DNA of 64,000 nt from Trebouxia sp. TZW2008 (taxonomy: Eukaryota; Chlorophyta; Trebouxiophyceae; Trebouxiales; Trebouxiaceae): assembly GCA_002118135.1 (NCBI GenBank), contig BDIU01000382.1, positions 1-64,000 on the forward strand, in the 5' to 3' direction. The translations under genes and the position numbers were made by a program. Every line of letters starts with the position of its first letter. Position 1 is the first letter of the stretch. The notes under the pieces were generated by a model. The model did not search any database. It saw nothing but the letters and a program-made list of their open reading frames with translations, and was not told the DNA's origin. This document shows, piece after piece, positions 3,933 through 63,840 of the stretch.

Positions 3933-6900
3933 CTGCAGGCGTAAACAACTTAGGCTAAACTGACTGCCTTACAACACACCATCTGATACAATTTTCAAGC
4001 TTCAACTTCAAACTTGGGACCACTTGTTGCTTGATGCTCAGCACATGTGGTTGGCAAGCCACAGCGCAGCTGCAGCTCAGTTTGCAGTACAATACAGATG
4101 CAGCAGCATCAGCAGTACAATCTATACTCTGTGCGGAATTGTGCGGCATATGCATCAGCTTAGGTGTGAGTGGTGTAACAGATACTCTTAAGCCCAAGTG
4201 ACGTCTGAGTCTCCACCAAACCATCTGAAACACTGATTGAGCAGCTTAACCCTGGCTGCTGAAACCTAGCCTAGCATGCAGTCAGCATCACAGTCAACAG
4301 AAACATGCCAAGCTATAATCAGCTGCAATCTGCAAAGATGAACATGTGCTGGCGTCAAGTCAACAGATGGAGCCCTGTGCAGAATTAGCATTTCTGCATT
4401 AGCTTTTACGCCTTTTCTTTGGTCCACGCTCTGTAGAAGGAATGTTCATGCCTGTCAGCATGGGCGACCAAAATCTGCTGAAGTGTTGCACACTTGGAGT
4501 GCACATCAAGCAGAACTACCTGCTAGAAAACATTCCTGCCTGCACTTGACCAAGTATGGCTTGAAACTCAGCCACAGAAGAGGAAGAGGAAGAGGCAGAA
4601 CCTAGAGAAGAGCTTGACAGGGCTGATAGCTGACCATTGGTTGTGCACCATGTATCGGCATCATGTAACATGCATCAACAGAAGCACCTGCTAGAAAAGA
4701 TTCTGGCCTCTAGATCACCAACTATGGCTTGACACTAAGCCACAGAAGAGCAAGAGGCAGACCCTGGAGCAAATCTTGAAGGGGCTTGTAGCTGACTATT
4801 TGTCATGCACCATGTGTCATGCATCATGGATGTTATGTATCAACTAATGACAATGCATCATGGATGTTATGTATCAACTAAAGCACCTGCTAGAGAAGAT
4901 TCTGGCTTCTAGATCACCATCGTCCATGGCTTCAGATTTGGCAGCAGAAGATGAAGAGACAGATCTTGAAGGGGCTGCTAGCTGACTAGGGGCTGCTCGG
5001 GGATTCCCTCCAGCAATCCAGACTTGGGTCACCCACTTTACCGTCTCTGGGCTCTGAGCAGTGTGTATTGTCCTGCAGAAACATGTGACATCAGCTATAT
5101 ATACAATAGTCTGTCAATGCACACAACAGTATTGTGGACACAAGAGTCCGCTGACACAACATGCCTTATCATAGCTAGTGTGAAAATTTCTGGAGACTCG
5201 AGAGAAACATGCTTTCATACAGGGAGGGCGTGACAGTCTGTTCTGTAGCCACCCAGAGAGTGTTAAGCCATGACCCTCAACTGCCATGATGTATGCAAGA
5301 CAGACAGTGTGTTGCTAGCCAAGCTGAAACGGCGCATACACACCTGGAATCTGCTGTACCACTTGACAAGACTGGAAAAAAGAGGGGAGCTTGGCCGACC
5401 AGGTCCAATAACCACAACAGCCACAATGCGGAATTGGTGTCAGGAAAACAAATTAACGACACCATAGTGCTAAGTTACGTTTAAGTGCAGCTTCATCACC
5501 TGGGATCTGGGGTGCCATCTGAAAAAGCTGGGAAGAAGAGGAGTGCCTTGCCAATCTCAGGCTGTATGCTGACATTCAAACGTCCAAAATGCGTTGCGCC
5601 GCCGCTTTGGACGCTATTCAAATACACCAGCAGAGTTGCCTGCCGCTGGAAACGGTTTTCCCAGACAAAATTGGGCGGGAAGGCATCCTGCAGCAACGCA
5701 TTTTCAAACTCTTTCTCCTGAAGCACAGGGTGACATTGTTCAGGCAGAGAGGAGGGTATTGTCATCTGATTGATTTTGGGCAGAACGGTATTTGCAGTTA
5801 CGATGGCAATGATAGCGCCCTCGTGCCTCACCAACTTAATATGTAAGCGTTTGCAATGGTGGCTTGCACTGCATGATGGATGCAAGTGAACATTGTGACT
5901 GCAAGCAGTTCCGCGTCATGATTGCATAAGACCCAAGGTGAAGTGTAGCTTGTGCTCCAAGGAGTGCTGATCAGGTTGGTAGCAAGCCACTTGCAAGCTT
6001 TGAGACCAGTAGTGACATACACTGGGTTGCGTGCAACTGAGCACAGTGACTGCATGCACATGATAGACGGCATGCCATTGAACCAGATCAAAAGAGCATT
6101 GTACCTATCCAGAAAATGTTGACCAGGCTGGGGGCAAGCCGCTTGCAAGCCCATTCACAATTTCACAGAGCTCACGCAGGCAATGATGGCATGCAAGTAA
6201 ACATGAGATGCAATTTACCTCATGCTCCAAGAAGTGTTGACCAGGTTGGTAGCAAGCCACTTGCAAGCTCTCAAAACAGAACTGGCCAGGTGGGGGGAGC
6301 TGTCCAGGTGTGGTCCAGCTTCCTGCAGAAACTTGAGTGCTTTCAGCACAGCTGGAAGAACACACCTAAGGCATGCGCTCAAAGGAGTTGTCCATGATTC
6401 ATTGACAAATTCAACAATCGATCCCGACTTCAGCTGAGAAATAGGTGAGTATAGCATTTTGGGTCGATGCAACCTGTGTTATGTTAAAACAGGCAACTAA
6501 CAGTCCTGTTGCTGCCTGTGCAAAGGTCTTGACAGCAACATGACGACACGAGAAGCAGCCGCACTTATGCCAAGAAGCTGCTGAATGACTGATGGCTGTG
6601 TCAACGTTACTGATGACATAATACTGTTCTTAATGTTGTGTATTTAGTTGATGTCATATTCTGAACGTACCTACGTCCAGGAGCTGCTGAGCCTTTGCCT
6701 GAAGCTGCAGAACCATAGGCTGCAGATCTGGGTGTTGCTGAACGACTGATGGCTCTATTAGTACTGAGGAGCTTGTGCGTCTCTCATTGACGCTCACTGC
6801 ACCACTTTCAGCATTGCCCTCTCCTATTTTGGATTGCTTCATCAGACCTGCGGAAGGACAAAGGATGGTTGAAACAGCAAGTTGCTACAGTCGTGAAGTA

Positions 6901-8695: not shown

Positions 8696-8870
8696 CTCGT
8701 CTCAGCTCGATGAATGGCAGATGCTTGCGGTGCAGTTGGCACTTAAGCAGTGCGTGACGTTTGGATGAAAGTGAAAGGTTACACGAGCTGCCTGAGCTGT
8801 AAAGAGCAATTATATCTTGCTAATTTGGGCACACAGACATGCAATTGGGCAATCCTGTCTCACCTCCCAT

Positions 8871-8942: not shown

Positions 8943-9113
8943 TTCGCTTTTGCTTTTGTCATCATTCTTCTTATGCATCCTTTCGAACAGCTTCAGACAC
9001 AGCTTCCCTGAGTGGCGAGGACAGTCGAGTAGCGATTCCGAGCAAAAGCCTCGCGAACTACATGCCACCACAAGACTTGGTCGGGCCTGACCGGCTCTTA
9101 ACGTGTCGACATC

Positions 9114-10719: not shown

Positions 10720-10731
10720 GTCACAGTACTA

Positions 10732-10907: not shown

Positions 10908-10909
10908 TA

Positions 10910-12306: not shown

Positions 12307-12310
12307 AGGG

Positions 12311-12441: not shown

Positions 12442-15400
12442 ATGGCGCCAACGCTGGGATCCAGCTCGACAGCTCTGCAGGCTCTTCGCGGAATTGACTT
12501 GACAGGCAAAACAGCAGTGATCACAGGTAAGCTTGCCCTGTACACAGACTCTCCTGAGCGCGTCTCGCAATTTGGTACAAGGCAGCGCATGCCTGATAAC
12601 TATGATCATGACTATGATCATGTTTCGGCGCATTTGACCATCCGCTTCACCTGGTTTTGCCTCGACAGGAGGAAACTCGGGGCTTGGCAAGGAAACAGCG
12701 CGTGCTCTGGCTCACGCGGGAGCGCGCGTGATACTTACCAGCAGGAATGTGCAAGCGGGGCAAGATGTCGCCGATGAACTACGAACGTCGGGCGTCAAGG
12801 TCAGTCTAATCTCTGCTGCTGATAACTACAATTTTACTTGCTTGCTGAAGGTTTGAGCGCATGCTGCAGGGACAGCTTGAGGTGGCACAACTGGACTTGG
12901 CAGATCTGAGCAGCATACAACAATTTGCCAGGCACCTCAACTCTCAGCCATCAGTGGACATTCTGATCTGCAATGCTGGCATCATGGCTTGCCCAAAATC
13001 CTACACCAAAAATGGATTTGAGATGCAAGTTGGCACAAATCACTTTGGACATTTTGCCCTCACTGATCTGCTCATGGACAAGTTCAAGCAGCAGGTGACT
13101 TTGCCATAAGCCTGCTTTACGCATCTGTGACCACATCTTGCAGTATGCAAGCAGATCTCAAGGCACTGCAGTAAGTGCATGAGCACGATTTCTTATTCCT
13201 CTTGCTCTTTCTGCTCTGGCAAAATCAGGGCCTTGCATGTTCGTGTGCAAAACGTAGCTCTGAGTTGTGCATGCTGCCCCGTCTGGCATGCCTTTCATTG
13301 AACAAAATGCATTGCACCTCAAAATCCTCACTGATCCCGTCAGCTTGTCTGCCTGACGCTACATCCACTAGTAATTTGGGGCGCTCAGTGTAGCGTGTCG
13401 TGATTTGCAAGGTACACCTGTGCAGGTTTGTAGCTGTCTCACGCCATCACACGCAACATCAAATGCAAGCATTCACTGTGCCTTGCTGTATGCAGGGTAT
13501 GCCAGTGCTACCTTCACAATGAAATGCAGGCAGTCCGTGTAGCATGCTATCATGTGCAGCATACACCAGTGCAAGTTGTAGCAGCCTCATCTTCAGCACG
13601 CCAAATGCAAGCATTGACTGCAACATGCTGTGTATAGGACATAATCATGCTTCAAACACACTACAATGCAAGCCCTCAGTTGGCCATGCCATCATTTGCA
13701 GCGTACACCAGTGCGAGGTGTAGCAGTCTCCTCCTCAGCGCAGCAAATGCAAGCGGCCTACAATGCCATACAGTATGACAAGAAACACAGCAGTACAGTC
13801 CCATAGATGGCAATTAGTCACTGTTCATGCTGCTTGCGGGGTACACCAGTGTGAGTTGTGGCAGTCTCTTCCTCAGCGCATCAAATACAAACAGCCTACA
13901 ATGCCATACAGTATCACAAGAAACGAAGCAGTTTAGTCCCATAGATGGCAAGTAGTCAGTGTCCGTGCCGCTTGCAGGCCGCACCAATGCGAGTTGCAGC
14001 AATCTTTTGACTTCATCCATTGCTTACATGCGATGTCACAAGACAGCCATCATCTGCAAAGCTGGATGCAAGCGTTTACTGTAGCATGCTGTCTGCAGGA
14101 CACCCCAGTGCGAGTTGTAGCAGTCTCCTCCTCAGCTCATCAGATGGGCTCTGTAGACCTAGATGATCTCCACTACAAAAACAGGAAATACACTGCTTGG
14201 AAGTCGTATGGCCAGAGCAAGCTGTGCAATGTTCTGTTCGCCAAGGAGCTAGCAAGAAGGTACAGCATTTGTGGCATGACCCTAGGTGCATCAAAGCACC
14301 ACTGAATCAGGCACAGCTAGCGTTCCAAAGACTGCACGTGGCATGAACACATCACTGTATGCGGCACAGCAGTCATAAGAAAGTTTGCATACAGCAAACA
14401 AGCCATTCACACGGCACAGCCATCACTAATAATGCACAGCATCTTAGAACACTGGTCAGACATGTTGCATGAGTCTCCTGAGTGTTTTGCATCATGTTAC
14501 CATGCTGTTTTGCTTTATTTTTTGTGACCATCATAGTGTGCTATTCTGCATGCAGCAATAAAGTCTAGGTCATGTGTGACAATAACAAGCTACGTTGTTA
14601 TCATTTGGCTTGTTGTGCAGGACTCAAGGGACCAACATTCAAGCCTTTAGCCTTCACCCTGGGATCATCATGACCAATCTTTGGCAGCATACTCCAATGC
14701 TGAAGCCTTTCCTGAGTTTGGGCGCAAAATTCTTTGCCAAATCACCTGCGCAGGTTAGCTCTTACCAGCTTTCTGCTTTGATGCATGGAAACAGCAAAAG
14801 GTGGCAGCTGTCAAATGTCCCGATGGTCATGCCAAGCATTGCATGTGCATGAGCGATTGTTATTCTCAGCTCAAATTGCTCAGGTGGCCGCAGCAAAAGG
14901 GCATGCATATGAGGAATGAAGCCCTAAATTTCTGTCAGCTCCAGTGCAACTCTGGTTGGGTGTTATCAGACAAACACATGTCATTGCAGGTGCTTGCATA
15001 TGCATCGAGTGATTGCATGGGAACTGATAAGACTCAAGCAAGCAGTTGCGGTGCTGCAGGTGCTTGCATATGCAAGCGTCGTAACTGTTTGCTTGAGTCT
15101 TATCAGTTCCCATGCAATCACTCGATTTTCAGTTCCAGACAAACCCACCCAACTGCTTGCTCGCTCGCTCACTCACCCATGCATGACTACACGCCTTTCC
15201 CCACCGTATCCCTCTCTAGTGAGTGTTAAACGGACGATGTGGTGCCTGCTTGCCATGTTGCACGGGCTTGTGTTGGTCTTATTGAGCCTGTATGTCTTGC
15301 CAGATACGCATATGCAGCCACAGCTCCTGAGCTGAATAATCAGTTCAATGTCGAGTTGCCATGTTGCAGACAATCTGGTGCATTCTTGCATAAATTTGTG

Positions 15401-17138: not shown

Positions 17139-20100
17139 TCATGTGGGGCCCGCTGTCTGGGCGGCAGCTAAAGTACTCAAAGCAGTAGTGGTGCCAGTAG
17201 TTTGAGAATCTGGAGGAGTTTCAAGGTTGTCAGCTGAGGCCCCAAGCGTCTCAAGCCTGATGCGCTCCCTTTCCCGGATTTCTTGCCGCCTACTCAACGC
17301 ATTATGAAAGATGTCAAATGTCATTTATGTTACCAATCATTACTGATTATTGGTCTTTACTCATTAGTGCATAGCGGAGAATTGACTGCTCATCATGTCA
17401 TGTGATGACACTAGTACAATAAACAAACAGTGCAAATGCAATGCTCATTGGAACATACTTTGTGCGACGAAATGGCACTGGTAAGTTGGCCATTCATGGC
17501 ACAAAAGTTTACACGACTCAACTGAAGATAGCTGCATCATGTGCACGATTCAAGCAAGCTGCAGGACGGCATGCCCAAAAGAGCACCGATACATATATGC
17601 TTGCACGCACGAGCCTCAGTCTTGCGCCGCTGATCAGACCTGGAGAAGAGGATGAGCAGGGCCAAGCCTGAGCCCACGCACACATGAGCAGAAGCAGCAG
17701 TGTTGCTTGTGCCTGAAAGACTTGACTTGAGGGTCGACTTGCGGTGCACAAAATGGCTTGAGAAGAATCTGTGGAAGGCAATTTGCTGCTACTGTACGCA
17801 CAGATAGTGCAATTGCGTTAGGAGCATATAGATGCTCTCAAAGATGATGATGATACCTTGGGAAGAGGATGAGGAGGGCCAAGCCTGTGGTTGACAAAGC
17901 CCCTCCTATGGTCTCTGGCACCCAAATGAACGGATTCTTGATTGCCTGCAAAAGTCCGGTCAATCACAAGGCGGTCAATGAGCCAGATGGCCATCAAGAT
18001 GACCATGATGCAGCAATCCCATGGGCAATGCCAACCATTAGAATGCAAAGAGTGAAGAGGAACGGCGTTTGCTTACCAGGCCGTAGCTGAGCCACATGAC
18101 CATATTGAGGAGATTCATGATGCATTGAGAAGATTAGTAAAGCCAATCGTAAGAAAGCAAAGAACCAAGACATCTTCTTGTGTTGAGCCAAGTCTGGCAT
18201 CAGGCACTTCAGCACTTTGGCCTGATGCACAACTAGTAGTGCATAGTGCAGCAGGATCTGATGCTTACCAGGCCATAGCTGAGCCACATGACCATGTTGA
18301 AAAAGACTATGATGAAGAAAACGTAGTTCAGCGATCAGGAGTACGGTTATTCTGGATCACTTTGACAGATAAAGAGTGAATGCAAAACAGCAGCGGCAAC
18401 GCTTACCAGGCCGTAGCTGAGCCATGACCATCTTTGAGAAAAATCATGACATAGACAGAGGGGTTCAATTATGTTGACTGCTTACTTTTCATCACCTTGA
18501 TGACACGAAAGTGAAAGCAGAAGAGCAATGGCAATGCTTACCAGGCCGTATATGAGCCACATCATCATGTTGAGAAACGCCATGTTGCAGAATGCGGCTT
18601 TAGCAATGAGGAGTCCTTATTCTTGTCACCTTGACAAGTATGAAGTGAATGCAGAAGAGCAGCGGCAATGCTTACCAGGACGTACCTGAGCCACATGACC
18701 ATGTTGAGGAAAACTATAATTCAAAAAGGGGCTTCAGCGATGAGGAGTAAGATAATTTTCATCAATATGACGAGTGCAGAGTGAATGCAAAACAGCAGCG
18801 GCAATGCTTACCAAGCCGTAGCTGAGCCACATGACCATGTTGAGGAACACCATGATGCAGAACGGGGGATTCAACGATGACGAATCCTTGTTTTTCATAA
18901 CCTTCACCAGCGTGCTCAAAGGACCAGCATAAAAGAAAACTAGGCATGCTGCAGCGGCAAAACCCCTGGATGGCCCAGGATGATGTCAGCACTTTTTTCA
19001 TGTGAGATCATGTGACTGTCATAATGACAGCCACATCATGACATAAACAGCCAGTCAATCTTTACGCTTTGAGCCTATTCATGCCAGAATGGAGTGAATA
19101 ACATGCTGCAGATCCATATGTTGCATGTGTTTGTGCTGTAGCTTGCAGACTTGAGCTCAGCATTGTGTTCATGAAATTCTGCGTATAACAGGACTGACAT
19201 GAGCATTGCTCCCAGCATTTCTTGCTGAAGAACAACTCATCTTGAATAAGTGCTTTCAACAGCATCCTTGATGTTTGACAAACAAGAGCAATGCTGTTTT
19301 GACAGGTGCAAGCTATGCATGATTGCATAAGCACAGGGTTCACATGTCGCATGGCAATCAGCACTGGCAGTGAGCAGGCGTTGCATACATTCCAGATGGC
19401 ACGCATGTTTTGCATGAGTATGGCTATACTCCAAAAGCTTGGAGACTGATGTTAGTTGCCAGAAAGAGCACATGCATTGACATCTGTATGCATGGGCAAA
19501 GGCTGCCTGTGCAATTGCAAGGCAGCATGCAAGGCAAAGCATAGTGACCTACCATACAGTGTTCCTGGTGTCATTGGAGACATTGATGTGTGTAGTGACG
19601 AGGGCTATTACGGAGTAGTAGCAAGCCAGGACTAGAATGACAGCTGTCATAACGTTTTGCACCTAGAACCAACAAAGGATTTCAGGTGAATCCCTGAAGA
19701 CAGTGAGTCTCAGATGGCAATGTCAGTGTTCTGACATATGGTAGCATGGTTCACAGCCAGGTTGTTAACAGTCCACCATGCCTGCCAGCATTGACCAGCT
19801 GTGGCAATCTTGCGTCTTTGATGATAAATTACAACATCTCATGTGCAAGTGAGTTCAAACATGCTGCCAAAACGTGTGCTGCTGCCATGCAATGATCATG
19901 ACTTTACCTTGGGCGTTGCATGAGGAAGAGTAGACAGGATCAGCCACAAGCCTATGAGCAAACCAGGTGCATTGGCAAAGAAGACGAACCAATTCTTGAT
20001 CAGCGACCCATAAATCACTTGGCCACTGGTGAGGCCAAGTATGCCTGTGTACGGTATCGGATTGAGCTCCTGCAGAACGCCGCAGCGACGTTGGCTATTG

Positions 20101-48200: not shown

Positions 48201-51200
48201 AAATCCACTCACAACAACTGCAATGTGTTGTGGACTCATTAGGCGTTATGCAACATAAGTTGATCAGCTTACCACAAGATAGCTTGTGCAGGAGGACTGG
48301 GGCCAAGATGTCAACTGCCCTTGCCAGAAACAGCCCTAGATCAGTCTCAGCTGAGGCACTAGGCACATCCAGCTTCCCTCAAGCATGCTTTACGGTTATA
48401 TGTGTAATGCCATGTAGTGTGGGACGCATTCAATGGTGCCGTGGTGACCAGCTTTCACAAAAGCGTCACCAACATGAGTGATGAGACTGACCGCAAGACA
48501 GCTTGTGCAGGAAGGCTGGGGGCAGAATGTCATCCACAACTGCCCTTGCCAGGAATAGCCCTAGATCATCCTCAGCACTAGGCACATCCAGCTTGAGATC
48601 ATCCACGCTGCTCAGCAGATTCTTGAAGCCCTTCTGCATCTGATCTGCTTGGATGATCTCATGGTACAGGCTTGACAACAAATTTGCTGCCATCTCATGT
48701 TCCCTGCATACACAATGCAGCACAAAACAGTCACTGTCTGTGCCCAGCATTGGAGAGCAGCTCACTGGCATGAAGTCTTGGTGTGAATCTACTTACAACA
48801 ATTCTGTCTGTCTGGATGATTCCATGGCATAGGCTTGACAACAACTTTGCTGCCATCTCATGTTCCCTGTATACACAATGCGTCAGAAAGCAGTGTACGC
48901 ATGCTAGGAGAAGCTAGCCTGCTCAGCAGGTTCCTCAAGCTTGGCTGCAGAGTGCTGCTGGCTTTATGCAATGTGCAGAGGCACCAGTTCTGTGTGATGT
49001 TTCCCGCTGTGTAGCATACATCAAGCAAAACTTGGCCCCTCAGCACTTTATATGAAGCAAGCAGTGTTGCACCACAAGAGAAGAGCAAAGACACAGTCTG
49101 ACAGATTTTGTGAGCTTGTGTGCAGGTTCAACACAAGACGCTGTCCTTGATTGCTGATTGCTGCTTGCTTTATGCAATGGCAGGAGAACACAGTAACCAC
49201 ACAGAACTGTTCAGAGTAATGTTACCTGCTGTGTAACAGACAACGAGCAAATCTGCGCATTGCAAGAAGCAAGCGGTGTTGCACCATGAGAGAGCTACCA
49301 AGGCGCTGTGTGACAATTTCATTAAGGTTGTGCGCGGTTACCTTCTGATTGCTGCTTGCTTCATGCAATGTGCAGAGGAGCACAGTTTTGTGTCATGTTT
49401 TCAAATTGGAAAAACATGGCAAGCAAAACTGAACTGCGCTGTGCGTGGCAGGAAGCAAGCAGTGACGCATCATCAGAGAACCACAAGGACTGACACAATT
49501 TGCACAAGATGCTGTCCTTGGCAGTTGAATGCTGCTTGCTTCAGGCAATGTACAGACGCGCACTGCGTGAGATCTCCTGCTGTGGGTTAGACAACAAGCA
49601 GAAGTAGACCACTCTGTGCGGTGTATGAAACAAGCAATGACGCACCATGAGAGAATCACAAGAACGCAGCCTGACACGTTGTGTGAGCTTGTGTGCGCTT
49701 TCCATACAAGTTGTTGTGCTTGGCAGCTGAATGCTGCTTGTCGTATGTGATTTGCAGAGGCGCTCAATTCTGTATGATGTTTCCCGCTGTGTGACAATTA
49801 ACAAGCAAAACCCAACCCCTCTGCGCGTGTTCTGATCTGGATTCCTGCTGTATGGAGGTGCCATTTTTGTACATGGTGACTTGACAGTTGCTGATGTAGG
49901 TGCCAGGTCTGTAGATGGTGGCTTGACAGATGCTGACTTACATGCCAGGCAAGTGTGGGTTGATGATGCGATCACCTGTCATTCTTGTCCATGGCCAGAG
50001 TGACCACTTTCTTCACAAAGAAATGGTGGAATGGCGGCTCCCCAAGCTCCTGGAACAACAGACCAAACTGCTATAACGACGTCAAAGCCGATTGTGAAAT
50101 ATTGTTTGCAGGTGTTTCTATACGTCGTCACACGCATCATTACTCACTGTCATGCTTGCTGGGTGGGTGTCGTGTTACCAAGCCTGTTCCGCAAACTTTG
50201 TGACTGTGCCAACAGCATCATGGACAGGGCAACCAAATGCGAGCGCAATGCAACACTGCTTTCCCAACAGCAATCAGAGTGCTGATCAAGCATGGCTGCG
50301 CAGCAGCCTGCAACTCCACAAAGCAGTTGAATGCACAAAGCAGAGTATCGTCTGAGCTTGAAAGCCTGCTTCACAGCACAACAACAATGTGCTGTTTCAG
50401 CACTCATACAGATGCTATGCATGTCATTGCAACATGACTTAATACAATGCTGCATTTCCTGACGCTACATAACTTCTTAAACAAGCGCCATGTGATGCAC
50501 TGCTGTATGAGCTATCAGACAGCTGCAATGTCAAGACCAATTCATGCTCACCTGCAGGGTGGTGGCGGCATCTTGAATGTCCCCATTGACGTAGTACTCA
50601 TCCAGTATGGCTAGCACCTGCATGACATGAAAAGCCTTACATAGCTTGCTTTGGAGAAAAAGTTGACCTATGGGTTTTTGTTATTAGTGAAGTGGGCACT
50701 GCAAGACACAGTTTGATGACGATGTGCTTGAGCCGCAGAGCAAGTCAGCACAACAATCTTCAACGCATCTGGCAGTTGGAAGCTGTTGTGCAGCACTGAC
50801 TTACAGCTGTACACTACATTACAGTTTGGAGTTCACTGAATGTGTCAGTGAACTCCGAACTGGTGTCAAAGCGCAAAGCACCTACCGCTTGCTTGTAGGC
50901 CTTGATTTGCTCCACCTTGCGTGAGTGAAAGGCCAGGGCACGTCGCTCCTCCCCTGAGTCATAATTGGGGTCATTCCTGTCCATTTTGTCTGCCTCTGGT
51001 GACTCCTGCATAGCAGAACACATGCAACATCTCAGTCTGCCTGTCTCAAACGGTAAGCGACAGAGTGCAAGTGGCAAGATGCAATGCTTCAGCAGACCTG
51101 TCCATTCTGCCAGCACTTGGTGACTCCTGCAACGCACATTGCATGCAACATCAAGTTGCGCTTGTGGAACACAAAACTTGACATGATAAAGCAGCAAGAT

Positions 51201-54200
51201 GCTTGGAGTAACTTTTGTTCCCACAGTGTGCTTCCAATGACTTCTGCAAAGGACGAAGTGTGCAACATCAAGGCCCGCCTGCAAAGCACTGTCGCCAGAG
51301 CGCTGTCTACTTACCAGAGCTTGACTGCAATTTTCAGAATAACTTCTGCTACACGTCAGCTATTTGTCAGCAAGTCAATACCTATTGCACCCGAGTGTGT
51401 CCCAGCAATAGGACCATACTGGTTTTGCAGAAGACGCTGGCTTGCTGACAGACAGACAGCTTCATGGCAAAACTTGTCTACCTTCAAATTTCTCTTGCAG
51501 CCATCAAGCTGCATTGAGGCTGTAGTGATGCAATAGAAATCACTGCTGAGTGTTTGTTGAGACAGCCTCTGCTATGTGCCATCTATTGGTCAACAAGCCA
51601 ATGCCTATTGCATGCCAGTATGTTTCAACAACAGGGCCAAACTGGTTTTGCAGAAGACACTGGTTTGCTGACACCAAAAAAAAAGGCAGAGATTGCCCAA
51701 AGAAGGACTAGCAAACTGCAATGCAGCTAAAATCAAGCAACTCAATATCTGCATGTGCGTTCAAAACCAAATTGGCTGTGGACTTGCTCTCGTGAGGAAT
51801 GTGATCCATGCATGTATGAGCTGTTTTGCATACGCTCAGCTAGGATGTAAGCAGGCAAGAAAAACACATTCAGAATGCAGTATCAAAGGCAATACCCACG
51901 TGCAGCATGCTTCGAGTTCATGTATCAGCTCTTGGAGGGTACGAAAAAACTGTGTCACTTGTCTGTCCAACTATTGCTCGTCGTACTGACTTGATGGAAG
52001 CAAACAATTGTGGGGTCCCTGGCTATTGAAACAGGTTACTGAAGGGTCTAGGCCCTGATGCAAGGCTCACGTCCAAAATGGTACTTGCCGTCATGTTTGT
52101 GTTTACTGTGTTTTGTGCCAGTGGTAGTACAATCATGACACACTATGCTGCATAGTGCAGTGATGAAATTCCCTGATGTAGCAAAATAGAAGCGTCAAAT
52201 CTACGGATTTTGGTGGGCTTACATTGTCGTAAGAGCTGCCCCATGTGAACTTGCCACCAGCCCCGCCCTTCTTCGTCTTGCCAGTGCCCTTTCTTGACTG
52301 GGAGGACCTGCATGGTTGGACATGATTGCTCGCCATGATGCTGTGATACTGAACATCACAAGACAATGCAACGCTCTGACACATTTTGGCCCAAAAGGCA
52401 TGTTTCTACAGCATATTTGTGCACAGTGAACAGGGAGAGGAACACCTGTTACCTACCTCGCGATCGCGCAGGCACAGGTATCGATCAATCAATCACAAGA
52501 AGTTGTGCATGGCTTTCTGGTATAGCATGCCAGCTTAACATGAATGTTGGTGAGGCCTTGGTGACTACCAGGTTGATACGCTACGCAAGCAGTTCTGCTC
52601 AGACTTGTGTCTGATTGCTGCATGCATATCTGATACTTGCTGAAGCAAAGCGCAACCCTCTAACCCCATGACACCTCATTGCTGCCAGTGCAGATGCAGG
52701 GTCGGCCGCAAGTTTCACATCCACATCTGCATGAGTGCTCACTTGTGGTGGTTGTGACCTGGTAAATCAGCTGATCCAGAGCCTGCTGACTTCAAGCCTT
52801 TGTTGGGTGACTTGCTGCCGCTGCTGTTGGCTCTAGATAGTTCCCTTGAGCGGGCTGGCGATAGCCTGGTTGCTGCTGGAGACACTGCACCCACATGAAC
52901 AGAGTTGCATTCAAAGGTCACAAACAGCATGATGAATCACGAGAAAAGCAGAAGACCCTTGCTGATGACCCAAGACAGCTCCCTTGAGGGGGCTGGTGAT
53001 AACCTTTTTGCTGTTGGAGATGCTGCACCCACACACGCAGAGTCACATTGCAGGGCATGGTGCTATTGCAACCCACAGTTCATTTTGCTCAATGCACAGC
53101 GTGAATATCAACAGCGCCAAGGTCTAGTTGCTGTTGGCCCTAGCTTCCTTGAGCGAGCTGGTGATAGCCTTGTTGCTGTCGGAAACACTGCACCCAGAGC
53201 AATATCACAGTCAGTGTCCACAAGAAAAGCATGGCGTGTCTCAGCAGAGAAAAAAGAAACTAGATGCCGTTTGGAATGTTGCAAACATATGGGCAAAGCT
53301 TCATTGCAGGGCACAGGTGACATTGCTGAAAGCAGCTTGGATGTAAGAAGAACAGGTAAGGAGTGGTTGCTATTGGGCCTTGACAGCTTGCGTGAGCTGG
53401 CTGGTGATAGCCATGTTGCAGTTGATGAAGATGCAGCCACACAAGCAAAGCTGCACCCACACAAGCAAAGCTAGTTTTAGTCAGAAGTTGTTGTCAACTG
53501 GATTAAGCCTAGGAGAGAAGCTTCCTCATTGGATAGCTTTCTGGAACGGGCTGGTCATGGCATTTTTGCATATGGAATCGTTGCACCCACACGGGCAAAG
53601 CTGCATATGATGCTTCCTTACAAAACATGCTGTTTGCAAAGCAAGAACCTGATTGCTTGTGCATCACAGATAGGGCTATGATGTCAAACTGGCTGCTGGA
53701 GATGCGACACCCACATGCACAGACGTACAGTTGACATCACAGCGTGGGCATGTTGACAATTCAAACAACTGCAAGAAAAGTATTGCTGTTTTGCAGCGAG
53801 TTGTGTACCCACATGAGCATCCTATCATTTGGTAGTCAAATTGTTACGCATAGCATATTGGGCAAAAAGCTAAACAGGCTCGGCAACAGCTAGCGAAGTA
53901 TAAGGTCTCTGAGGTTGCTGCGTCACTGTTGCTGCAGCAGCACCAAACTTGCAATGGGCAACACTCAGCTATTGAGATGTTGACGATCACAGGCGCATGC
54001 CGGAGCAGGTAATGAGAACTTGCTTCTTAAAAGAAGTCACAGGTGGCAAGATTGCTTGAGACTTTTAAACATGCATTAAGAATGCATGCAATGAGGCGTT
54101 TGGTCTGGCTTTTGGCCTATTTGCAATACATCTGAGCTAACCCAGACAGCACTGTTGACGATTGCATCTGCATTTCAGATGTCCAGGCAACATTGCAGAT

Positions 54201-54753
54201 GCAATTGTTCACATTGCTGTCTGAGGTGCACTGTAGATGTGTGGCTGGTTTGGACCAATTGCCATGCTGTAGGTTTCATACTGATGATCAAGGCAAGGTG
54301 CTCATAGACCCACTGGCTTGTTGCACTTTGCATTGTGTTGCAAGTTGCTAGTCCTGCATTGACATGTACACCCACAAGACTGCATGCGAGTTGCAAATGG
54401 TGAACCAGACCAAATTCTGCTGCCTGATCGGGTGTATCAACAAGACTGTCAAAGATTTGTGCACGTTTTAGATGTTTTAGGTCAGGCACAGGATCCAAAT
54501 GGTTGGAGACCGTTCATTGCTCCAGTACATACCTAGCTGGGCCTGCTGAGCCTGTCGAGCGTACGTTTAGACTGAATGAAATGAATTAATGTAATGTCAC
54601 AAATTGCTGACCTGGCGAGGTTTGCTTGGCAGCTAAAGCTGCATCCAAAGCGGCGCGCTGTGCTTCTGTCAGGAAGCTGCTTGACAATCCTGAGTCTGAG
54701 TGATGCCCATTAGCTTCTTCCTCTAGTGCTGCAAGCTCAGCTTTGGTGCGCAT
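21222..54753 (-). CDS. MA3-domain translation regulatory factor (MRF/PDCD4-like, four MA3 domains)
   Basis: Sixteen coding exons in transcript order: 54753-54612, 52884-52743, 52307-52223, 51005-50886, 50617-50552, 50049-49976, 48703-48492, 43418-43270, 42553-42359, 41367-41232, 38522-38347, 33225-33091, 23547-23394, 23125-23031, 22712-22482, 21350-21222. Total 2241 nt, 746 aa; every phase closes and an in-frame TAG lies just before the ATG. Family hallmarks are KKGGAGGKFTWG (about residue 106-117), DPNYDSGEE and four MA3 repeats starting near 164, 318, 465 and 628, for example EYLTSKDVSEARCCLRKLAV-PFFHHEVVKQAL and EYLTNGDAVEASRCLMELNV, closing KGFQRVEESIDDIALDSP and GWLV. MA3 domains bind eIF4A; plant MRFs are TOR/S6K-linked translation factors. 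Exon 14 uses a GC donor (CAG|GCAAGA). Coding bases are under 7% of the gene. Confidence 0.93.
21628..22385 (-). repeat. Four copies of MRF exon 15 3' end
   Basis: Minus-strand LLSKLASxxAINQ plus donor GT recurs at about 21628-21690, 21935-22000, 22135-22205 and 22318-22385, all on the donor side of the real exon end at 22482 (LTLLSKLASSGAINQ|GT). Low-complexity CAA/AAC and GAAA tracts fill the gaps (for example 21852-21910). Confidence 0.85.
23203..23270 (-). repeat. Copy of MRF exon 14
   Basis: SASHAAERLQNCWHGGSQT, preceded by a TTAG acceptor in the correct phase, duplicates SARHAAERLQNCWHGGSQT of exon 23031-23125. It lacks an obvious donor but reads through in frame into the real exon, so a retained-intron product is also open. 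Confidence 0.75.
23630..25900 (-). repeat. About 12 tandem copies of MRF exon 13 5' end
   Basis: The real exon (23547-23394) begins DLQLDNPDAAHLLVLFLGRA. Minus-strand relatives such as LQLDNPDVAHLLLLLLGRA (about 23640-23700) and QLDNPNAAYLLLLLLGRA (about 23818-23880) start the array, followed by increasingly decayed ones near 24000, 24200, 24420, 24620, 24790, 25010, 25200, 25390, 25670 and 25860. Period roughly 180-210 bp. All lie on the acceptor side. Confidence 0.85.
26040..31040. repeat. Satellite-like array in MRF intron 12
   Basis: Roughly 190-bp units carrying GCATCAAGCATGAGGGCTG, TGCTGCACAG, GAGCTGTGA and GCCATGGCT..GCTGTGCAGCATTCACAGCT recur about 20-25 times with moderate divergence. 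The longest clean pair is 29640-29850 against 29870-30050 and 30070-30250. No exon of the gene matches the unit. Confidence 0.8.
32885..32975 (-). repeat. Copy of MRF exon 12 3' end
   Basis: GTTACTCACCTCTGTGGATT and following sequence matches GCTTACCTCTGTGAATTGGA at the donor end of exon 33091-33225. Donor-side copy. Confidence 0.7.
33390..33500 (+). mobile_element. Second LINE 3' tail
   Basis: GAACAAGCCAGCCTGGCAAA..GCGCTGGAAAGTGTAATC..TTACTATTATTACG matches the 3' tail of the LINE at 34100-34220. A heavily 5'-truncated copy. A third related tail lies near 56878-56937. Confidence 0.7.
33610..34220 (+). mobile_element. Decayed LINE 3' end (non-LTR retrotransposon)
   Basis: Frame-broken coding remnants of a LINE reverse-transcriptase C-terminal region: SVLLYGAETWTLLNKHCAAM, YLRHICGISLRD, then in another frame LRWYGHVCRLLDTRLPKVVL and GSKPPGRPRTT. 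The tail includes GACAAGCCTGCCTGGCAAGA and ends in ATTATTATTATA-like repeats. Inserted antisense in MRF intron 11-12. Not functional. Confidence 0.82.
34390..34760. repeat. Short tandem array, unit about 120 bp
   Basis: GCAGAGCTTGACAGACAcTGCAACAA and CTCAAGTTGAAAGCCAAAAC recur in three to four units. Confidence 0.7.
35140..38110. repeat. Tandem array of hairpin-forming units
   Basis: Units of about 190-230 bp each carry GAACACAGGACAGCAT and, 60-90 nt later, its inverse ATGCTGTCCTGTGTTCACTG, followed by CATCCTGGCACC. About 13-14 units; pairs are clear at 36660-36780, 36870-36980, 37280-37400, 37680-37790 and 37870-37980. Lies in MRF intron 11. Confidence 0.8.
38650..40195 (-). repeat. About eight copies of MRF exon 11 5' end
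   Basis: The real exon is 38522-38347 (GTDLNGSTSPSKTDAEAVTY, then KAAAVATV). The nearest copy (about 38765-38655) reads GTDTNGSTSSSRTDAKAVAY then KPAAVATVR, with an intact TTGCAG acceptor. Others, marked by GACGGTGGCCACCGCTGCAG, lie near 38870, 39075, 39295, 39510, 39718, 39940 and 40150, spacing about 200-220 bp. Confidence 0.88.
40845..41200 (-). repeat. Three copies of MRF exon 10 3' end
   Basis: Sequences related to GAGGCAGAAGTGTCCCAGTC and CCGTCnGCCACAGCTGTGG (exon 41232-41367, encoding ATAVADGWLDADWDTSAS) recur at about 40848-40920, 40990-41055 and 41135-41200, with purine-rich spacers (GAAGAAGATGA). Confidence 0.8.
42031..42181. repeat. Long hairpin, 69-bp arms, 13-nt loop
   Basis: Arms 42031-42099 and 42113-42181 are inverted copies with two mismatches by eye. 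The upper arm abuts the partial copy of MRF exon 9 at 42181-42300. Either strand's transcript would fold into a near-perfect duplex. Confidence 0.92.
42181..42300 (-). repeat. Copy of MRF exon 9 3' end with donor
   Basis: TEESLVTLLKQLSGSGDLSS then SQTSR|GTGAGA duplicates the end of exon 42359-42553 (SQISR|GTAACA). The frame is kept and the copy's donor fits the consensus better than that of the full exon. Confidence 0.8.
42590..42740 (-). repeat. Copy of MRF exon 9 5' half
   Basis: Shares GCAGCAGCGCTTGCTTGACnACTTCGTGATGG and the following stretch to CACATCCTTGCTGG with exon 42359-42553. Acceptor-side copy. Confidence 0.8.
42925..43795 (-). repeat. Copies of MRF exon 8 on both sides of the real exon
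   Basis: 3'-end copies at about 42925-43025 and 43105-43195 share TTTGCGGATGGCTTCTTTGG and TGGTCCAGGGTGACTCTGTC with exon 43270-43418. 5'-end copies at about 43550-43660 and 43750-43795 share GGATGCTGCGCCGCAAGGTG and CGCTCTGCTTTGAGCTTGAC. Orientation fits the acceptor/donor-side rule. Confidence 0.85.
44040..45460. repeat. Tandem array, unit about 250 bp
   Basis: Six units with GTCAGTGACTCTGCnTCACA, ACAAGAGCCTTGTATGCCAG, CCTGTTGCAAAGGCCAAGG, GTGTGATGCAGG and GCTGTGCAGCATTGACAGC. No similarity to exons of the host gene noticed. Confidence 0.8.
45830..47030. repeat. Tandem array, unit about 210-230 bp
   Basis: Five units with CTACACATGCTGCTGCT, CCATACTCTGCTnTTCTGC, GCTGTTTGCTGAACGAAGAG, AGGGTCTTGCAGCAGCATG and CATGCGGCAGCTGGTCAACA. 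Interrupted at 46272-46421 by a foreign segment. Confidence 0.8.
46272..46421. mobile_element. Small TIR element inserted in a tandem unit
   Basis: 150 bp bounded by GTTGGGACGCCCC and GGGCGTCCAAC, which are inverted matches with one gap. More GC-rich than its surroundings (CCGCGG, GCGGCCGC) and absent from the sister units. A target duplication is not clear. Confidence 0.5.
47110..47420. repeat. Two-copy tandem repeat, unit about 180 bp
   Basis: GATGTCAGCnGGCnCTGCnTTGGT..CTGCnCTGTAnnCCACCAGA..TGCATCTGrTTCAnGCAAAGT occurs at about 47165-47240 and 47345-47420. Confidence 0.7.
48055..48890 (-). repeat. Copies of MRF exon 7 on both sides
   Basis: Real exon 48492-48703. 3'-end copies: about 48055-48110 and 48265-48375 (CAAGATAGCTTGTGCAGGAG.., ACTGCCCTTGCCAGAAACAG). 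5'-end copy: about 48790-48890 (ATGGCATAGGCTTGACAACA, TTTGCTGCCATCTCATGTTC). Confidence 0.85.
48920..49870. repeat. Tandem array, unit about 200-240 bp
   Basis: Four to five units with TGCTGCTTGCTTTATGCAAT, GTGCAGAGG, TCTGTGTGATGTTTCCCGCT and GTGTnACAnACAnCAAGCAAA. Confidence 0.75.
50822..50862. repeat. Short perfect hairpin beside MRF exon 4 donor
   Basis: Arms 50822-50839 and 50845-50862 (18 bp with one G:U-type change) with a 5-nt loop. It lies 24 nt inside intron 4 from the donor at 50885. Confidence 0.75.
51090..51300 (-). repeat. Two copies of MRF exon 4 5' end
   Basis: CCATTCTGCCAGCACTTGGT..GACTCCTGCAACGCA and CCAATGACTTCTGCAAAGGA resemble the acceptor end of exon 50886-51005. A further 220-bp two-copy repeat (TTTTGCAGAAGACnCTGG) follows at about 51320-51680. 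Confidence 0.7.
52960..53725 (-). repeat. About five copies of MRF exon 2 5' end
   Basis: Exon 52743-52884 starts VSPAATRLSPARSRELSRAN. Related minus-strand stretches lie near 52965-53030, 53130-53195, 53370-53455, 53535-53600 and 53690-53725, each with GATAGCC..TTGCTG..GCACCCACA. Spacing about 110-240 bp, acceptor side. Confidence 0.85.
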
Positions 54754-54779
54754 GCTCTAGTAGATCTACTGACTTGTGA

Positions 54780-58581: not shown

Positions 58582-61500
58582 TCATCCAGCATCAGAACGT
58601 GTGTCATCGATCATGATATCAGCATGCTTCATTGAGGCATAAGGCGACGCTGACTTGGCAGCTCCAGTCCATTTCTTACGGCCTTTGCCAGCAAGCCTCC
58701 TCCTGATTGCAGGGCCAGCACACATTGCAGACCCACAGTTGCAGTGACCCTGCAGGTTGCTCTCCAAGAAGTTTGTGCCATAGTCGAACCTGCATTGCAA
58801 ATGAATCAGTTCTCGGATCCATAATCTACTAATCAAGCAAAGCTCAACGAGTGTTGCAACATGCACAAGTGTGCTCATTGTGGTGGCTGTCACCCCTGAA
58901 GGAACAATTGCAACCACCTGAGTGCCAGAACTGAATGAAGGCATTTAGAGCAGCATACCAACACGGCAGATATGCATGCTCAGCAGCTGAGGCAGTAACA
59001 GCCATCTGAAGCCTTTTATCGTCAACACTAGATTCTGCAAATGCGCCATACTTGCAGTCAGTCAAACGAAACGGTAGCTGGTGTCACGTAACACACAGCA
59101 TACAGTCATATGCTAGTGAGTAAGATTCTCACGTCAGTTCTGTCATGGGGGGGATGTTCTGCCCAGCAAACAGGCAGACCTGGGTCTGCATGAAGTCATG
59201 ATGAGCGGACAGCAGCGGCTGTGCATATAAGCTGGGCTCACAACTATGGTTGATGAAGCGCGCTGCGTTGCCTTCATGTTTAGCATCCAAGATGAACTCT
59301 ACCTCCCTGCAGGGCAGCAAACCCATCAATGGTGATTTTCCACTTCGCTGTTGCTCGTGACATGTTGATCTGGCATGTGGCGCAGGCAAACAACATCATG
59401 CAGGCTGCAACGATGTGCCTGTAAGCGGCAGGCAGGCAGTAAAGCCAGCTCTCTTTGTCATTCTGGACAGCACAGTGAACCACATATTTGCATGACACCA
59501 ACTGACTAATCCAGACTTCCAGTGATACCTGTCAGCAGCAGGCAGCAAAGGCAACTCTTCATCTCCTTCCTGGTAAGGTCGTGGCATCAGGTCAAAGGTG
59601 TACTCCATGTCATCATCAGCGACTGTGCTAGCCGCTCTGATTCTGCCAGTGTAATTCATGACGAAAGCGCCATTAGGGATGGTGTCCCAGCTGCGCAGAC
59701 CCCAGCCCTTGTTAGCTGTCTGAAACACCTCCAAGCGATATGGGCAACCCTACATACCAATGAGTAATTGTTCGATGCGAGAACAGCGCTTGTTCTGCCA
59801 GGGTAGTTCACGACAAAAGCCACATTGGGTATGGTCATCCAGCTGCATAGGCCCCAACCCTTGTTGGCTGTCTGGAAGACCTCCAGCCGATATGGGCAAC
59901 CCTGCACACATTCAGTCACCCAATCAGGCAGCCCTGCATGTCGCGTCCCAAAAAGATAATTTGGCGACTGAAACAAGCTGAGACTGGTGTCCTATGTTGT
60001 CTCAACAGGGCCTAGCCTTTGTTATCTGTCCGAAATACCTCCAAGCAGTTTGGGCAGCTTTACAAATGATCACTCCATTGGTGAAAAAGCAAGCGAGCCA
60101 ATGATCAATCATATCAAACAAGCAAGCAAGCAGGCAAGCTATCAGGCAGCTCTGCATGTCACAAGATAGGCAATGAGTCGCTAAATGAAGCAATCCATCA
60201 GACAAGTGATGACCAGTGTATATGTTGACGCAACAATATTGGCCAAATCATTTGGGCAATGTCGTCATTAAACATGGGGTCTTGGCACACCTGTTGGCTG
60301 GCTGCTTGAGGGCAGGCAGAGCCCTGAGGGCAGTTGGCCCAGGGCCCACACTCATACAGCACTGGTTGCAGCCTCTGGGAAATGGCATGCTTGATCTTGC
60401 CTCCTATGTCTGTACAGAACAAGCAGTTGTTTAGGACACTTCAAGCTGAATCTCAGGCACACAATGGGTACAACAGCAGTTGGCTTGTGACCAAGACTCA
60501 GTAGACGCCGTTGGCCCACACTCATACAGCACTGGCTGCAGCCTTCAAGAAATGGCATGCTTGATCTTGCCTCCTATGTCTGCACCAAAAATAACTTAAA
60601 TTGAGCTGAGAGGCATCCAAAACTGGGCTTCAGGCATATACACCACACAAGGGCAGGCAGTGCCATGATGGCAGTCGGCCCAGGGCCCACACGTGTATAG
60701 CACTGGCTGCAAGCTCCTTGAAATGGCAGGCTTGATCTTGCCTCCCATGTCTGCACGTGATAAGAGCTTGTTTAGGTGCAAGAACAACACAAGCTAAATC
60801 TCAGTCATACAGTGAGTATGGCACCGGTTGGCTCCTGACTTGCACTTTCAATGCATCATAGGTAGCTTGAGTACCTGAACAGTGGACCAGCGCCCACACT
60901 CACCAGCAACGGTTGCAGAGTTATGGAAACAACGTGCTTAATTTCCATTCACATTTGTATGTATTGCAGGGGCAAGTCTGAGGGCTTACTGCGATCATGC
61001 TATGGGAGCAAGCCACCATTCAGGTACTCCAGGTACAGGTGAGGCTGCGCCTTTAATTCCTTGGCTTTATTGCAGCCATGAAGGGATGCATCCACGGCAT
61101 AACAGGGCAATTGAAGGCCCTACTGCCGTTATGCAGAAGGAGCAATGCAAAGGCGTAGTGTGATTGTAACAGGGCAATTGAGAGGCTTACTACGGTCATG
61201 ATATGGGAGCAAGCCACCATTCAGGTACTCTAGGTACAGATGAGGCTGCCCCTTGAATTCCTTAGGTAGCGTTGGCACTGCCGGCTGTGGTACAGCAGGG
61301 CACGCAACAGAACCGGTGATATAGGTGAGAGTCTTCTTGTGAGCAGCTCGCGCACTGCAACACGGATTTCTGGTGAGTGCCAGGATAAGAGTTGGGTCAG
61401 CCTTTTGACATGCAATAATGCTCAATAGAGATCACCAATGTAGCAAGCACGTTCTCTGCTTCTTGTCAGCACAGCAAACATCCTCACATTTGAAGTATTA

Positions 61501-63840
61501 GATCATTGCCTCAGAACCGGCTCAATGATCAGCTGTACATTTGAGAGTTGAACCAAGTGTTCCACCTGAGTCACATGGCTGATCATGTGACAGTTGTGTG
61601 AATGGTCATATGACCAAACATCTGCCTGGTCATGCGACTGGTCACATGATTGCTGACCTGTCACTGATGTGGTGGGTGACAGGGTTGCCCTTCATATCCC
61701 GCTCCCTCAGAATGTGGCTGGCCTCACTGAACGGTGTGATTGCCTCATTCACTTCATTCACCCCTACAACCTGCATATGCTACAAAGCACAGTTATTACC
61801 ATGCAGTACAGTAAACTCACTTTGTAACGACTGCTTTGGTCACCAAGAAATTTGTCCTTACATCGAGTCGTCGCCACTCAGAGGGACTACTGCAGTCGGA
61901 ATGCAGTGATTGGTCACCAATGGCGTCGTCCTTACATCAGGATTGTCCTTACACCGAGTGTCCTTGCAGAGAGAGTTTACTGTAACCTGATCACTTGCAG
62001 TTGCCTGCCCCTGCTCTAGCTGAGTGCAGCTGAATGGACATGAGTACTGTTCTGGCAAAGCTTGATTGTCTAAGCAAGCACTCTAGCGTCAGTGTGGAGA
62101 CAGGGCAATTTGAGGCAGCAAAGTGCCACGCTGCGTGATTGCACAGCTGAAATACCGTTCTTCTTGGACATGATAACAACAAACAGTCCAGAAAATGCGG
62201 ATTGGTTTTGGCTCTTCGCCATAGGAGATATGAATGTCATGAACGCCCGGTCAAGTCATGCTATAATTGAAGATTCACAGTGTGCTTGAGATCAAAGACA
62301 CTCAACAACTTGCTACTTTACACTCCTCTGCAATAGCTCAAGCTTGATGAGAGAATGCACACAACTTTTGCACATAAGTTTTCCAGAAAGCGCTCACTGT
62401 ATTGGGCTCTGCACCACATGAGATGTCCACATCATACACACCCAGTCTAGTCAGCGCTGACAACCCCTTAGGCGCTGATTTGCCGCCAAAATCTACACGC
62501 TCTGTGGCTATGTCACCCTGATTGGGCCGCCGCCTGAGCAGATACTTGTACACCAGGAACCCGCCTTTGCCCTTTTCCAGCCAGTACTTCACCTAAAACA
62601 AATGATGCAGTATCGTAATGGAGTGTAATGTACCTTCATGAACCCCTGCAATGAAGGATTGTTCAGCATGGACTGTGTAGATCAGGTCACATTGAGGCTG
62701 CCCAATGCACATAGGGTCACCACACTTTACAAGTCAATATACATGACTTGACCACAGTCTGCAAGCCAACTCATACCCAAGAACACATCATGCAAGCAGT
62801 CAGGCAGCATCTCACTACATTGTGGAGGCCATCATAGATGTAGATGTTTGTCCACAATGCATCAGTTGACAACATTGTGCGACTTGCCACGCCTTATTCA
62901 ATCAATTTGTGTAAGCTGTAAACAGCACCTCACCACATTGTACAAGCCATCATAGATGTAGACACAGCCACATATGGCGTCCTTTTCCACATTCTTGCGG
63001 GTGATCCTGACGGGAATGCCCAATTGGATGTTCCCCACCTACGATAACAAGAATCTTTGAGTCAGGCCCAAACAGTGTGACTCAGTGCACTACAGCCGTG
63101 GGTGATAGGAGATCTCTGCTTGCGCAAACAATGCAGATGACAGGTTGTTTTCATGCCATTGCTTGGGCCACACAGTCAGATTCAACAGACAGGCTCAAAG
63201 AGTCTGACTGAGTGCTTTACGGCCGTCAGTGATAGGAGGTAACCTCTGCTTGCGCAAACAAGGCAGATGACGCAGATGTTTCTCACTATTTGCCAGACCG
63301 TACAGTCAGCTCCAAACAGACAGACTGGAATCACTACAGGTCAGTGGTAGACAGACTGGCATCACTACAGTGCGACTGGAATCACTACAGGTCAGTGGTA
63401 GGAGGAAATCTCTGCTTGCACAAGCAAGATAGATAACAGGCGTGTTCCATGCGTTTGTTTAGGCCATACAGCCAGATCCATTTGAGAGGCTCATGCATTG
63501 TGGCTCACTACACTACAGCTGTCAGCAATTGATTGCAACTTGTGCTTGCTCAAATGCAAGACAGGTAGCAGGCCTATGGCATATATAAGCTTTGAAACAA
63601 GGCTTGATACATGCAGTCAGCACAAGTGTGCTTTGCTTGTTGGGGTTTGACCGCTGCGCGATGCTTTGCAAGAAAGTCGTCATTGCAGCGTCAATGCATG
63701 CTACAGAACTAGTTGGCTGCACGCACTCAGAGGGACAAATATCAGCTGAGGCAAAGCACTCACCAAGGCCAGATTTCCAGCAACCAGCTTTTGGTCGCCT
63801 GTCTGCTTCCTGTTACCCAGCAAATCATTGCCACCCTGCC
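58582..63840 (-). CDS. SUVH-like histone H3K9 methyltransferase (SRA + SET), 5' part outside the window
   Basis: Nine exons in transcript order: 63840-63764, 63038-62934, 62592-62398, 61770-61658, 61354-61191, 60409-60291, 59749-59529, 59306-59133, 58789-58582 (1376 nt, about 458 aa, phases consistent, stop TGA). The N terminus and probably the start of the SRA domain lie beyond 64000 or in unseen exons. The SRA/YDG domain is clear: GQGGNDLLGNRKQTGDQKLV, LGIPVRITRKN, VYIYDGLYNV, YWLEKGKGGFLVYKYLLRRR. The SET domain has VFQTANKGWGLRSWDTIPNG, RFINHSCEPSLYAQ, ELTFDYGTNF and the post-SET CNCGSAMCAG. SUVH enzymes bind methylated cytosine through SRA and methylate H3K9, linking DNA methylation and silencing. 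The pre-SET part is short on Cys (YECGPWANCPQGSACPQ), so zinc binding may be altered. Confidence 0.93.
59795..60065 (-). repeat. Two copies of SUVH SET-N exon 5' end
   Basis: At about 59795-59910 the minus strand reads GCPYRLEVFQTANKGWGLCS and FVVNYPGRT, a close copy of exon 59529-59749. A more decayed copy lies at about 60010-60065. Both are on the acceptor side. Confidence 0.85.
60470..60950 (-). repeat. Three copies of SUVH pre-SET exon
   Basis: Copies at about 60490-60585, 60655-60755 and 60885-60950 match GGKIKHAISQRLQPVLYECG of exon 60291-60409. The middle one reads GGKIKPAISRSLQPVLYTCG with a GTGCAG acceptor in the correct phase but no matching donor. Confidence 0.85.
60980..61075 (-). 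repeat. Copy of SUVH exon 61191-61354 3' end
   Basis: GCTTACTGCGATCATGCTAT..GGGAGCAAGCCACCATTCAG..TACTCCAGGTACAGGTGAGG matches the end of the parent exon, donor GTAAGC included. Donor-side copy. Confidence 0.85.
61809..61982. mobile_element. Pogo/Tigger-like MITE, copy 3
   Basis: TA|CAGTAAACTCACTTTGTAAC ... GAGAGAGTTTACTG|TA: terminal inverted repeats of about 12-14 bp flanked by TA, 174 bp, no coding capacity. Same family as the elements at 10051 and 10732. Lies in an intron of the SUVH-like gene. Confidence 0.72.
62805..62860 (-). repeat. Copy of SUVH YDG exon 3' end
   Basis: CTCACTACATTGTGGAGGCC..ATCATAGATGTAGA repeats the donor end of exon 62934-63038 (VYIYDGLYNV|GT). Donor-side copy. 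Confidence 0.8.
63060..63560. repeat. Intronic tandem repeat, unit about 125 bp
   Basis: About four units with CTGCTTGCGCAAACAAnGCAGATGA, GnCGTnnGTGATAGGAG and GCCAnACnGTCAGATC. A short TGGAATCACTACAGGTCAG run repeats inside it. Confidence 0.75.

Follow-up and report, generated by a model that had tools for sequence, protein, structure and literature searches.

Introns in the lichen alga Trebouxia sp. TZW2008 contain decayed partial copies of the exons that they adjoin, arranged in tandem and in the same orientation, with copies of an exon's 5' end lying upstream of it and copies of its 3' end lying downstream. The best explanation, and one that we consider probable, is that short tandem duplications are frequent in this genome, that they leave exon ends decaying in introns and that the introns lengthen in the process. 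That introns are built of local copies of exon edges had been proposed in a first-pass annotation of one stretch of DNA; it is borne out by the repeat content of that stretch, by the exons of its MRF/PDCD4-like gene and by kinesin loci sampled from the rest of the genome.

The window, by which we mean the whole 64,000-bp stretch analysed, represents bases 1-64000 of an 87.8-kb contig, and the genome that was searched with it amounts to 68.5 Mb in 527 contigs. The GC content of the window is 48.7%; the available text on the genome of Trebouxia sp. 'A48' gives 69.1 Mb and 49.7% GC (PMC12712428). Comparison of the whole window with itself yielded 195 direct repeat pairs versus 9 inverted pairs, the starts lay less than 3 kb apart in 186 of the 195 direct pairs, and local direct repeats covered 36% of the sequence. 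Block-shuffling left 0 pairs in 23 of 23 pieces, each shuffled once. Another 17 contigs contributed a single stretch each (164 kb together; three of 20 sampled contigs were too short), and these stretches held 178 direct versus 27 inverted local pairs, with direct repeats covering as little as 0 and as much as 39% of a stretch. When these stretches were pooled with six pieces of the window, offsets of about 120-220 bp occurred most often. Two frames on the plus strand were also seen by eye: a long one at 387-1748 with proline/alanine/threonine-rich repeats, which has a cell-wall-like appearance, and one at 9102-9506 whose start resembles a secreted protein. Pfam matches to herpesvirus and baculovirus families, obtained with frame-through translations, were treated as chance.

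One gene of the window encodes an MRF/PDCD4-like protein, and its model was built on the orthologous proteins of Trebouxia. It spans 33.5 kb, of which 15 introns make up 31.3 kb, and its joined exons give an uninterrupted frame of 735 residues followed by a stop. The predicted protein is closest to Trebouxia proteins, with 54-65% identity to three named ones, and to further sequences without a name, at 58-60%. Detectable local direct repeats account for 55% of its intron DNA. The acceptor motif TGCAG occurs at 11 of its 15 introns (54753-21222), and the intron between E14 and E15 (23030-22680) has an apparent GC donor (GCAAGA) together with a normal AG acceptor. One of the proteins used for comparison (P0006, Trebouxia sp. 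A1-2) has insertions that are missing from its orthologues and that look like annotation errors at introns. The gene and its exon-edge copies are as follows.

21222..54753, minus strand: MRF/PDCD4-like gene with four MA3 domains and 16 exons, one joined frame, colinear with Trebouxia orthologues
52822..53723, minus strand: array of copies of the 5' part of E2 with its acceptor, upstream of E2 (52884-52743) and running into it
51097..51152, minus strand: upstream copy of the 5' part and acceptor of E4 (51005-50886), 79%
48492..48703, minus strand: exon E7, with copies on both sides
48803..48894, minus strand: upstream copy of the 5' part and acceptor of E7, 86%
48068..48375, minus strand: two downstream copies of the 3' part of E7, 79% each, one of them aligned across the donor
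43270..43418, minus strand: exon E8
43556..43978, minus strand: three upstream copies of the 5' part of E8, of which one is confined to the inside of that part
42929..43192, minus strand: two downstream copies of the 3' part of E8
42633..42740, minus strand: upstream copy of the 5' part of E9 (42553-42359), 87%
42192..42320, minus strand: downstream copy of the 3' part of E9, 83%
40835..41038, minus strand: two downstream copies of the 3' part and donor of E10 (41367-41232)
38654..39562, minus strand: five upstream copies of the 5' part of E11 (38522-38347), spaced at about 214 bp
32889..32939, minus strand: downstream copy of the 3' part of E12 (33225-33091), 85%
25980..30666, minus strand: intron-only array of 4.7 kb within intron 12 (9.5 kb)
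23638..25937, minus strand: upstream array of the 5' part of E13 (23547-23394)
23201..23277, minus strand: upstream copy of the 5' part of E14 (23125-23031), 81%
21620..22388, minus strand: downstream copies of the 3' part of E15 (22679-22482), three at the nucleotide level and one more at the protein level

At the nucleotide level, same-strand copies of 11 of the 16 exons (E2, E4 and E7 to E15) lie in an intron next to the exon concerned, making 37 matches in all, and E1, E3, E5, E6 and E16 are without copies. E13 is the richest exon, with 11 matches at about 10 places. The count leaves out the pair formed by E7 and E13, which are paralogous MA3 exons that were detected in both directions, and one inverted match to E14. 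For the intron-only array at 25980-30666 no exon source was recognised. The geometry of the copies is strict. All 19 matches that reach the 5' edge of the exon lie upstream and all 10 that reach the 3' edge lie downstream, so that each of the 29 same-strand, edge-reaching copies follows the rule; the remaining eight reach neither edge.

The first-pass annotation spoke of six genes and named five. Four of the named ones, the MRF-like, SWEET, SDR and SUVH-like genes, do carry such copies, and in the fifth, a 2OG oxygenase gene, the evidence consists of a single weak copy (56 bp, 73%, E=2e-4). The features outside the MRF-like gene are these.

5341..5654, minus strand: core of a 2OG oxygenase exon (5654-5529) and its one weak downstream copy (5396-5341)
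13385..14280, plus strand: SDR-like exon (about 14060-14280), preceded by copies of its 5' part
18070..18964, minus strand: core of a SWEET exon (18964-18809), with copies downstream that extend beyond its 3' end
59600..60064, minus strand: 5' part of a SUVH-like SET exon (aligned part 59757-59641), with two copies upstream of it (59909-59793 and 60064-60011)
62805..63032, minus strand: core of a SUVH-like SRA exon (63032-62919) and a downstream copy of its 3' part

The SWEET exon has five downstream copies and the SDR-like exon six upstream matches, the limits of the latter exon having been set by eye from the open frame and not from Pfam. No match was obtained for three more SUVH cores, for two from SDR or for the single trial core taken from each of the 2OG and SWEET genes.

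Beyond the window, we used a set of 20 multi-exon kinesin loci, holding 94 of the 146 Pfam matches to the kinesin motor, that had been picked before their sequences were inspected and regardless of repeats. Overlapping matches were merged, which reduced the 94 to 93, and six entries were left out because their copy itself coincided with another Pfam match. About a third of the exon matches (33 of 93) have copies. All 41 copies that reach a 5' edge lie upstream and all 24 that reach a 3' edge lie downstream, 65 out of 65, in agreement with the arrangement described in the first-pass annotation; when the rule is scored by exon half it holds for 77 of 79 copies, and both exceptions are in one locus (L023). 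Direct pairs outnumber inverted ones by 144 to 1 in these loci. A count over 316.8 kb of sequence gave 124 direct pairs in which the repeat length is at least 60% of the offset, as befits a tandem layout. Introns were called with a splice scoring that had been trained on the MRF-like gene, and the 47 with a score of 8 or more, out of 66, were used; the shortest called intron measures 214 bp. Those with arrays have a median length of 719 bp (n=19) and those without arrays 340 bp (n=28; p=1.4e-7), which supports the claim that introns grow by this route. Two Pfam matches in the kinesin set (2907-2990 of L027 and 1606-1713 of L031, in oriented loci) resemble partial copies of a neighbouring kinesin exon. 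Some SNF2 exons are alike, for example one on contig C222 with three upstream partial matches, although here positions were read by eye and were not counted, and some pairs are ambiguous. The 29 myosin matches, which come from three genes, were left out of the counts.

The copies themselves tell how they have evolved. Under the proposed mechanism the source exon would be frozen at codon positions 1 and 2 and at its splice sites and free at position 3, and the copy would be free throughout. A frozen source and a drifting copy lead one to expect mismatches of t, t and 2t at the three codon positions, 2t in the intron flanks and t at the splice sites. A set of 100 exon-derived copies differed from their sources by 0.110, 0.097 and 0.224 at positions 1, 2 and 3, or 0.104 (484/4665) for positions 1 and 2 pooled and 519/2322 for position 3; the mismatch was 0.23-0.24 in the intron flanks of 54 junction-crossing copies and 0.093 (10/108) at the copied AG and GT, a value that does not differ from that of positions 1-2 (p=0.87). 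This is the pattern of a frozen source and a drifting copy with t near 0.10, and the copies decay as dead DNA. At inferred junctions the edge rule is kept by 51 of the 54 copies (37 of 39 acceptors, 14 of 15 donors); the three that break it are read as cases in which the Pfam match is itself a copy or the intron is ill placed.

These data bear on the suggestion, also made in the first-pass annotation, that the copies provide a route to new alternative exons, and on the stronger possibility that they are functional alternative or regulatory (poison) exons under selection. It is true that 70 of the 100 copies are without a stop or a net frameshift, over short lengths, and that splice sites are often kept (AG in 32 of 39 copied acceptors, GT in 13 of 15 copied donors). 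However, positions 1-2 show about half the mismatch of position 3 and the flanks, just as a dead copy of a constrained source would, the copied AG and GT change at the same rate as positions 1-2, a stop or net frameshift is present in 30 of the 100 copies, and not one counted copy covers a whole exon. We therefore regard functional exons as highly improbable and the route to new exons as unsupported. At the copied splice sites there is neither purging nor preservation after fixation, judged on the 10 mismatches in 108, a figure to which harmful copies that were lost instantly would make no contribution. The count of whole-exon copies in the MRF and kinesin sets is 0, where about four would be expected under uniform breakpoints and the observed unit lengths (P about 0.02), a weak hint of selection against duplications of whole exons. 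One pair from L031 that had been set aside takes in the two edges of a Pfam match which we read as a copy; it would be a whole-exon copy if that match were an exon.

Five arrays were tested against the 68.5-Mb genome and each matches its own locus only, in line with the claim that arrays are private and against a single dispersed family; the search passes over very common words, so this result is not proof of absence elsewhere. They include a 1.2-kb piece of the E13 array, a 1.4-kb piece of the intron-only array and the SWEET array, each unique to its own locus or intron. The satellite-like look of multi-copy arrays of units of about 200 bp might have raised the suspicion that an ordinary satellite, or a dispersed mobile element of the introner or another kind, had inserted beside exons, but this confinement to one locus and the presence of the exon's own coding sequence within the unit leave such an origin with almost no credence. 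We give equally little to an assembly artefact: the assembly is a draft, yet the copies differ from their sources by up to 30%, some of them with indels, and the exons of the MRF-like gene join into an intact frame.

Across 37 exon-anchored arrays the duplication unit has a median of 150 bp (interquartile range 126-179). About 150 bp is the size of a nucleosome, and this nearness may hint at how the seed duplications originate. Upstream arrays outnumber downstream ones by 23 to 14 (p=0.19). Several arrays keep a single register, with copies at 215, 436, 641, 855 and 1072 bp from E11 and at 112, 235, 358 and 481 bp in the kinesin locus L035, and others are irregular. There is no outward gradient of age in the 17 arrays with at least three copies: the mean rho is 0.03 and identity averages 80.6% for the nearest copy and 80.4% for the farthest, these being rough values taken over whole alignments. 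Similarity that is flat with distance, together with one-register spacing, points to expansion in register after a seed event, and we infer a seed duplication followed by homology-driven expansion. In consequence, the repeated duplication of junction-spanning segments that the first-pass annotation described stands as regards the tandem, junction-spanning origin of the copies, and is not supported in the simple form in which each round starts at the exon. Its description of the process as ongoing is weakly supported, as young events are few: among 27 kinesin arrays the best pair reaches 97% in one and rounds to 95% in another, and the only clean young tandem of unit size (L037, 2359-2618) has 130-bp copies at 96.9% without microhomology. 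Near-identical tandem copies may be collapsed in the assembly, and because young copies may be missing for this reason and copies within an array are not independent, a burst and a steady rate cannot be separated.

The edge rule follows from tandem duplication and the need for the exon to stay whole, and is thus no evidence of a special process at exons. A different reading is that duplication is targeted to exons or to exon-intron boundaries, for example through transcription, splicing-linked R-loops or exon nucleosomes, and that exons seed the growth of introns. Arrays are present in 19 of the 47 junction-called kinesin introns and 23 of 27 arrays are exon-anchored, as are 14 of 25 in the MRF-like gene. 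When duplications were simulated forward in time with breakpoints placed at random, with exons constrained, with decay and with detection as for the real data, the exon-anchored fraction came to 56-60%, and 23 of 27 was reached in two of 56 simulated sets; against an expected 58% the kinesin excess has p=0.0025, the MRF-like gene p=0.84 and the pooled data (37 of 52) a one-sided p=0.036. Per 47 introns the simulations gave 12 and 16 with arrays, below the 19 observed for kinesin. The kinesin excess and the nucleosome-like unit length speak for targeting; against it, the MRF-like gene matches the random model, the model is a simple one and the kinesin data come from only 47 introns. A preference of the duplications for exons is unproven, and targeting seems to us rather unlikely. 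Unanchored arrays may be old anchored ones that have decayed past recognition.

The explanation that we favour would work as follows. Short head-to-tail duplications with a unit of about 150 bp would arise frequently in the genome, the seeds presumably coming from break repair or polymerase slippage. With both breakpoints in an intron, the intron would merely become longer. Where the duplicated segment begins or ends within an exon and has its other limit in the intron next to it, the exon would remain whole and an extra exon end with a single splice site would be left in the intron, upstream if the 5' end is copied and downstream if the 3' end is copied. A fragment with a single splice site would define no exon, and so would be tolerated and decay; we infer that the spliceosome pairs sites across exons and hence ignores such fragments. 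Seeds might then expand in register into arrays, and intron length would ratchet upward without transposons. If the kinesin rate holds genome-wide, such duplications would, by extrapolation, account for much of intron length. We give an even chance to the broader proposition that, across an entire lineage of lichen algae, tandem duplication straddling junctions is a chief source of intron DNA, with about a third of exons accompanied by dead copies of their ends, splice sites included, and with a one-way ratchet imposed by exon integrity and by splicing that is blind to single sites.

The lengthening of introns without transposons is hard to watch, and here its steps can be read one by one with a built-in clock in the form of frozen codon positions, synonymous sites and intron flanks. 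The many natural decoy splice sites, neither purged nor preserved, would make the rules of splice-site pairing testable in an alga. There is also a practical side: gene finders may annotate partial copies as exons, as the two copy-like Pfam matches in the kinesin set illustrate.

Several known systems resemble this one in part. Tandem exon duplication, which gives mutually exclusive exons, involves entire exons that have both splice sites and are under coding constraint; it too copies exon sequence into the neighbouring intron, but the copies described here are partial, have one splice site and are neutral. Introners are dispersed families that in some algae create introns or lengthen them on a large scale, and the likeness lies in that scale, whereas each array tested here is confined to its own locus and not dispersed. 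Conspicuously long introns are reported from the Chlamydomonas group with their driver given as unknown in the available text (PMC8226300), and a mechanism that is visible in another green alga should be useful for that question. The available text of the Trebouxia A48 paper (PMC12712428) and of the Asterochloris genome paper does not use the word 'tandem'; in the latter an array of duplicated 141-bp units is described, without being presented as a feature of introns, from a low-GC region in which virus-like genes are numerous. The repair of adjacent nicks, or of breaks that have overhangs, yields short tandem duplications, according to the available text of PMC5730883 (citing Schiml 2016, Vaughn & Bennetzen 2014 and Messer & Arndt 2007), and these are alike in being local, head-to-tail and direct; the present duplications differ in their scale and in their consequence at exon edges. 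Intron gain offers the closest comparison. Hellsten 2011 and Gao & Lynch 2009 are said to be sources for intron gain by tandem genomic duplication, which shares with our case the head-to-tail copying of exon-derived sequence and splice signals. It figures in a list of intron-gain mechanisms (PMC3443670), and cases are described from Drosophila (PMC2891723), in the available text of each. There an AGGT segment within an exon gives rise to a new intron, whereas in Trebouxia the segment straddles an existing junction, with 54 copies crossing such junctions into the intron, and the intron that is already there becomes longer; this is seen at roughly one in three of the sampled exon matches. The literature searched, which leaves most subscription papers outside it, contains in its available text no account in which introns grow genome-wide through duplications that straddle junctions. 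The type of mutation is already known; its scale, the ratchet at exon edges and the toleration of decoy splice sites are what appears to be new.
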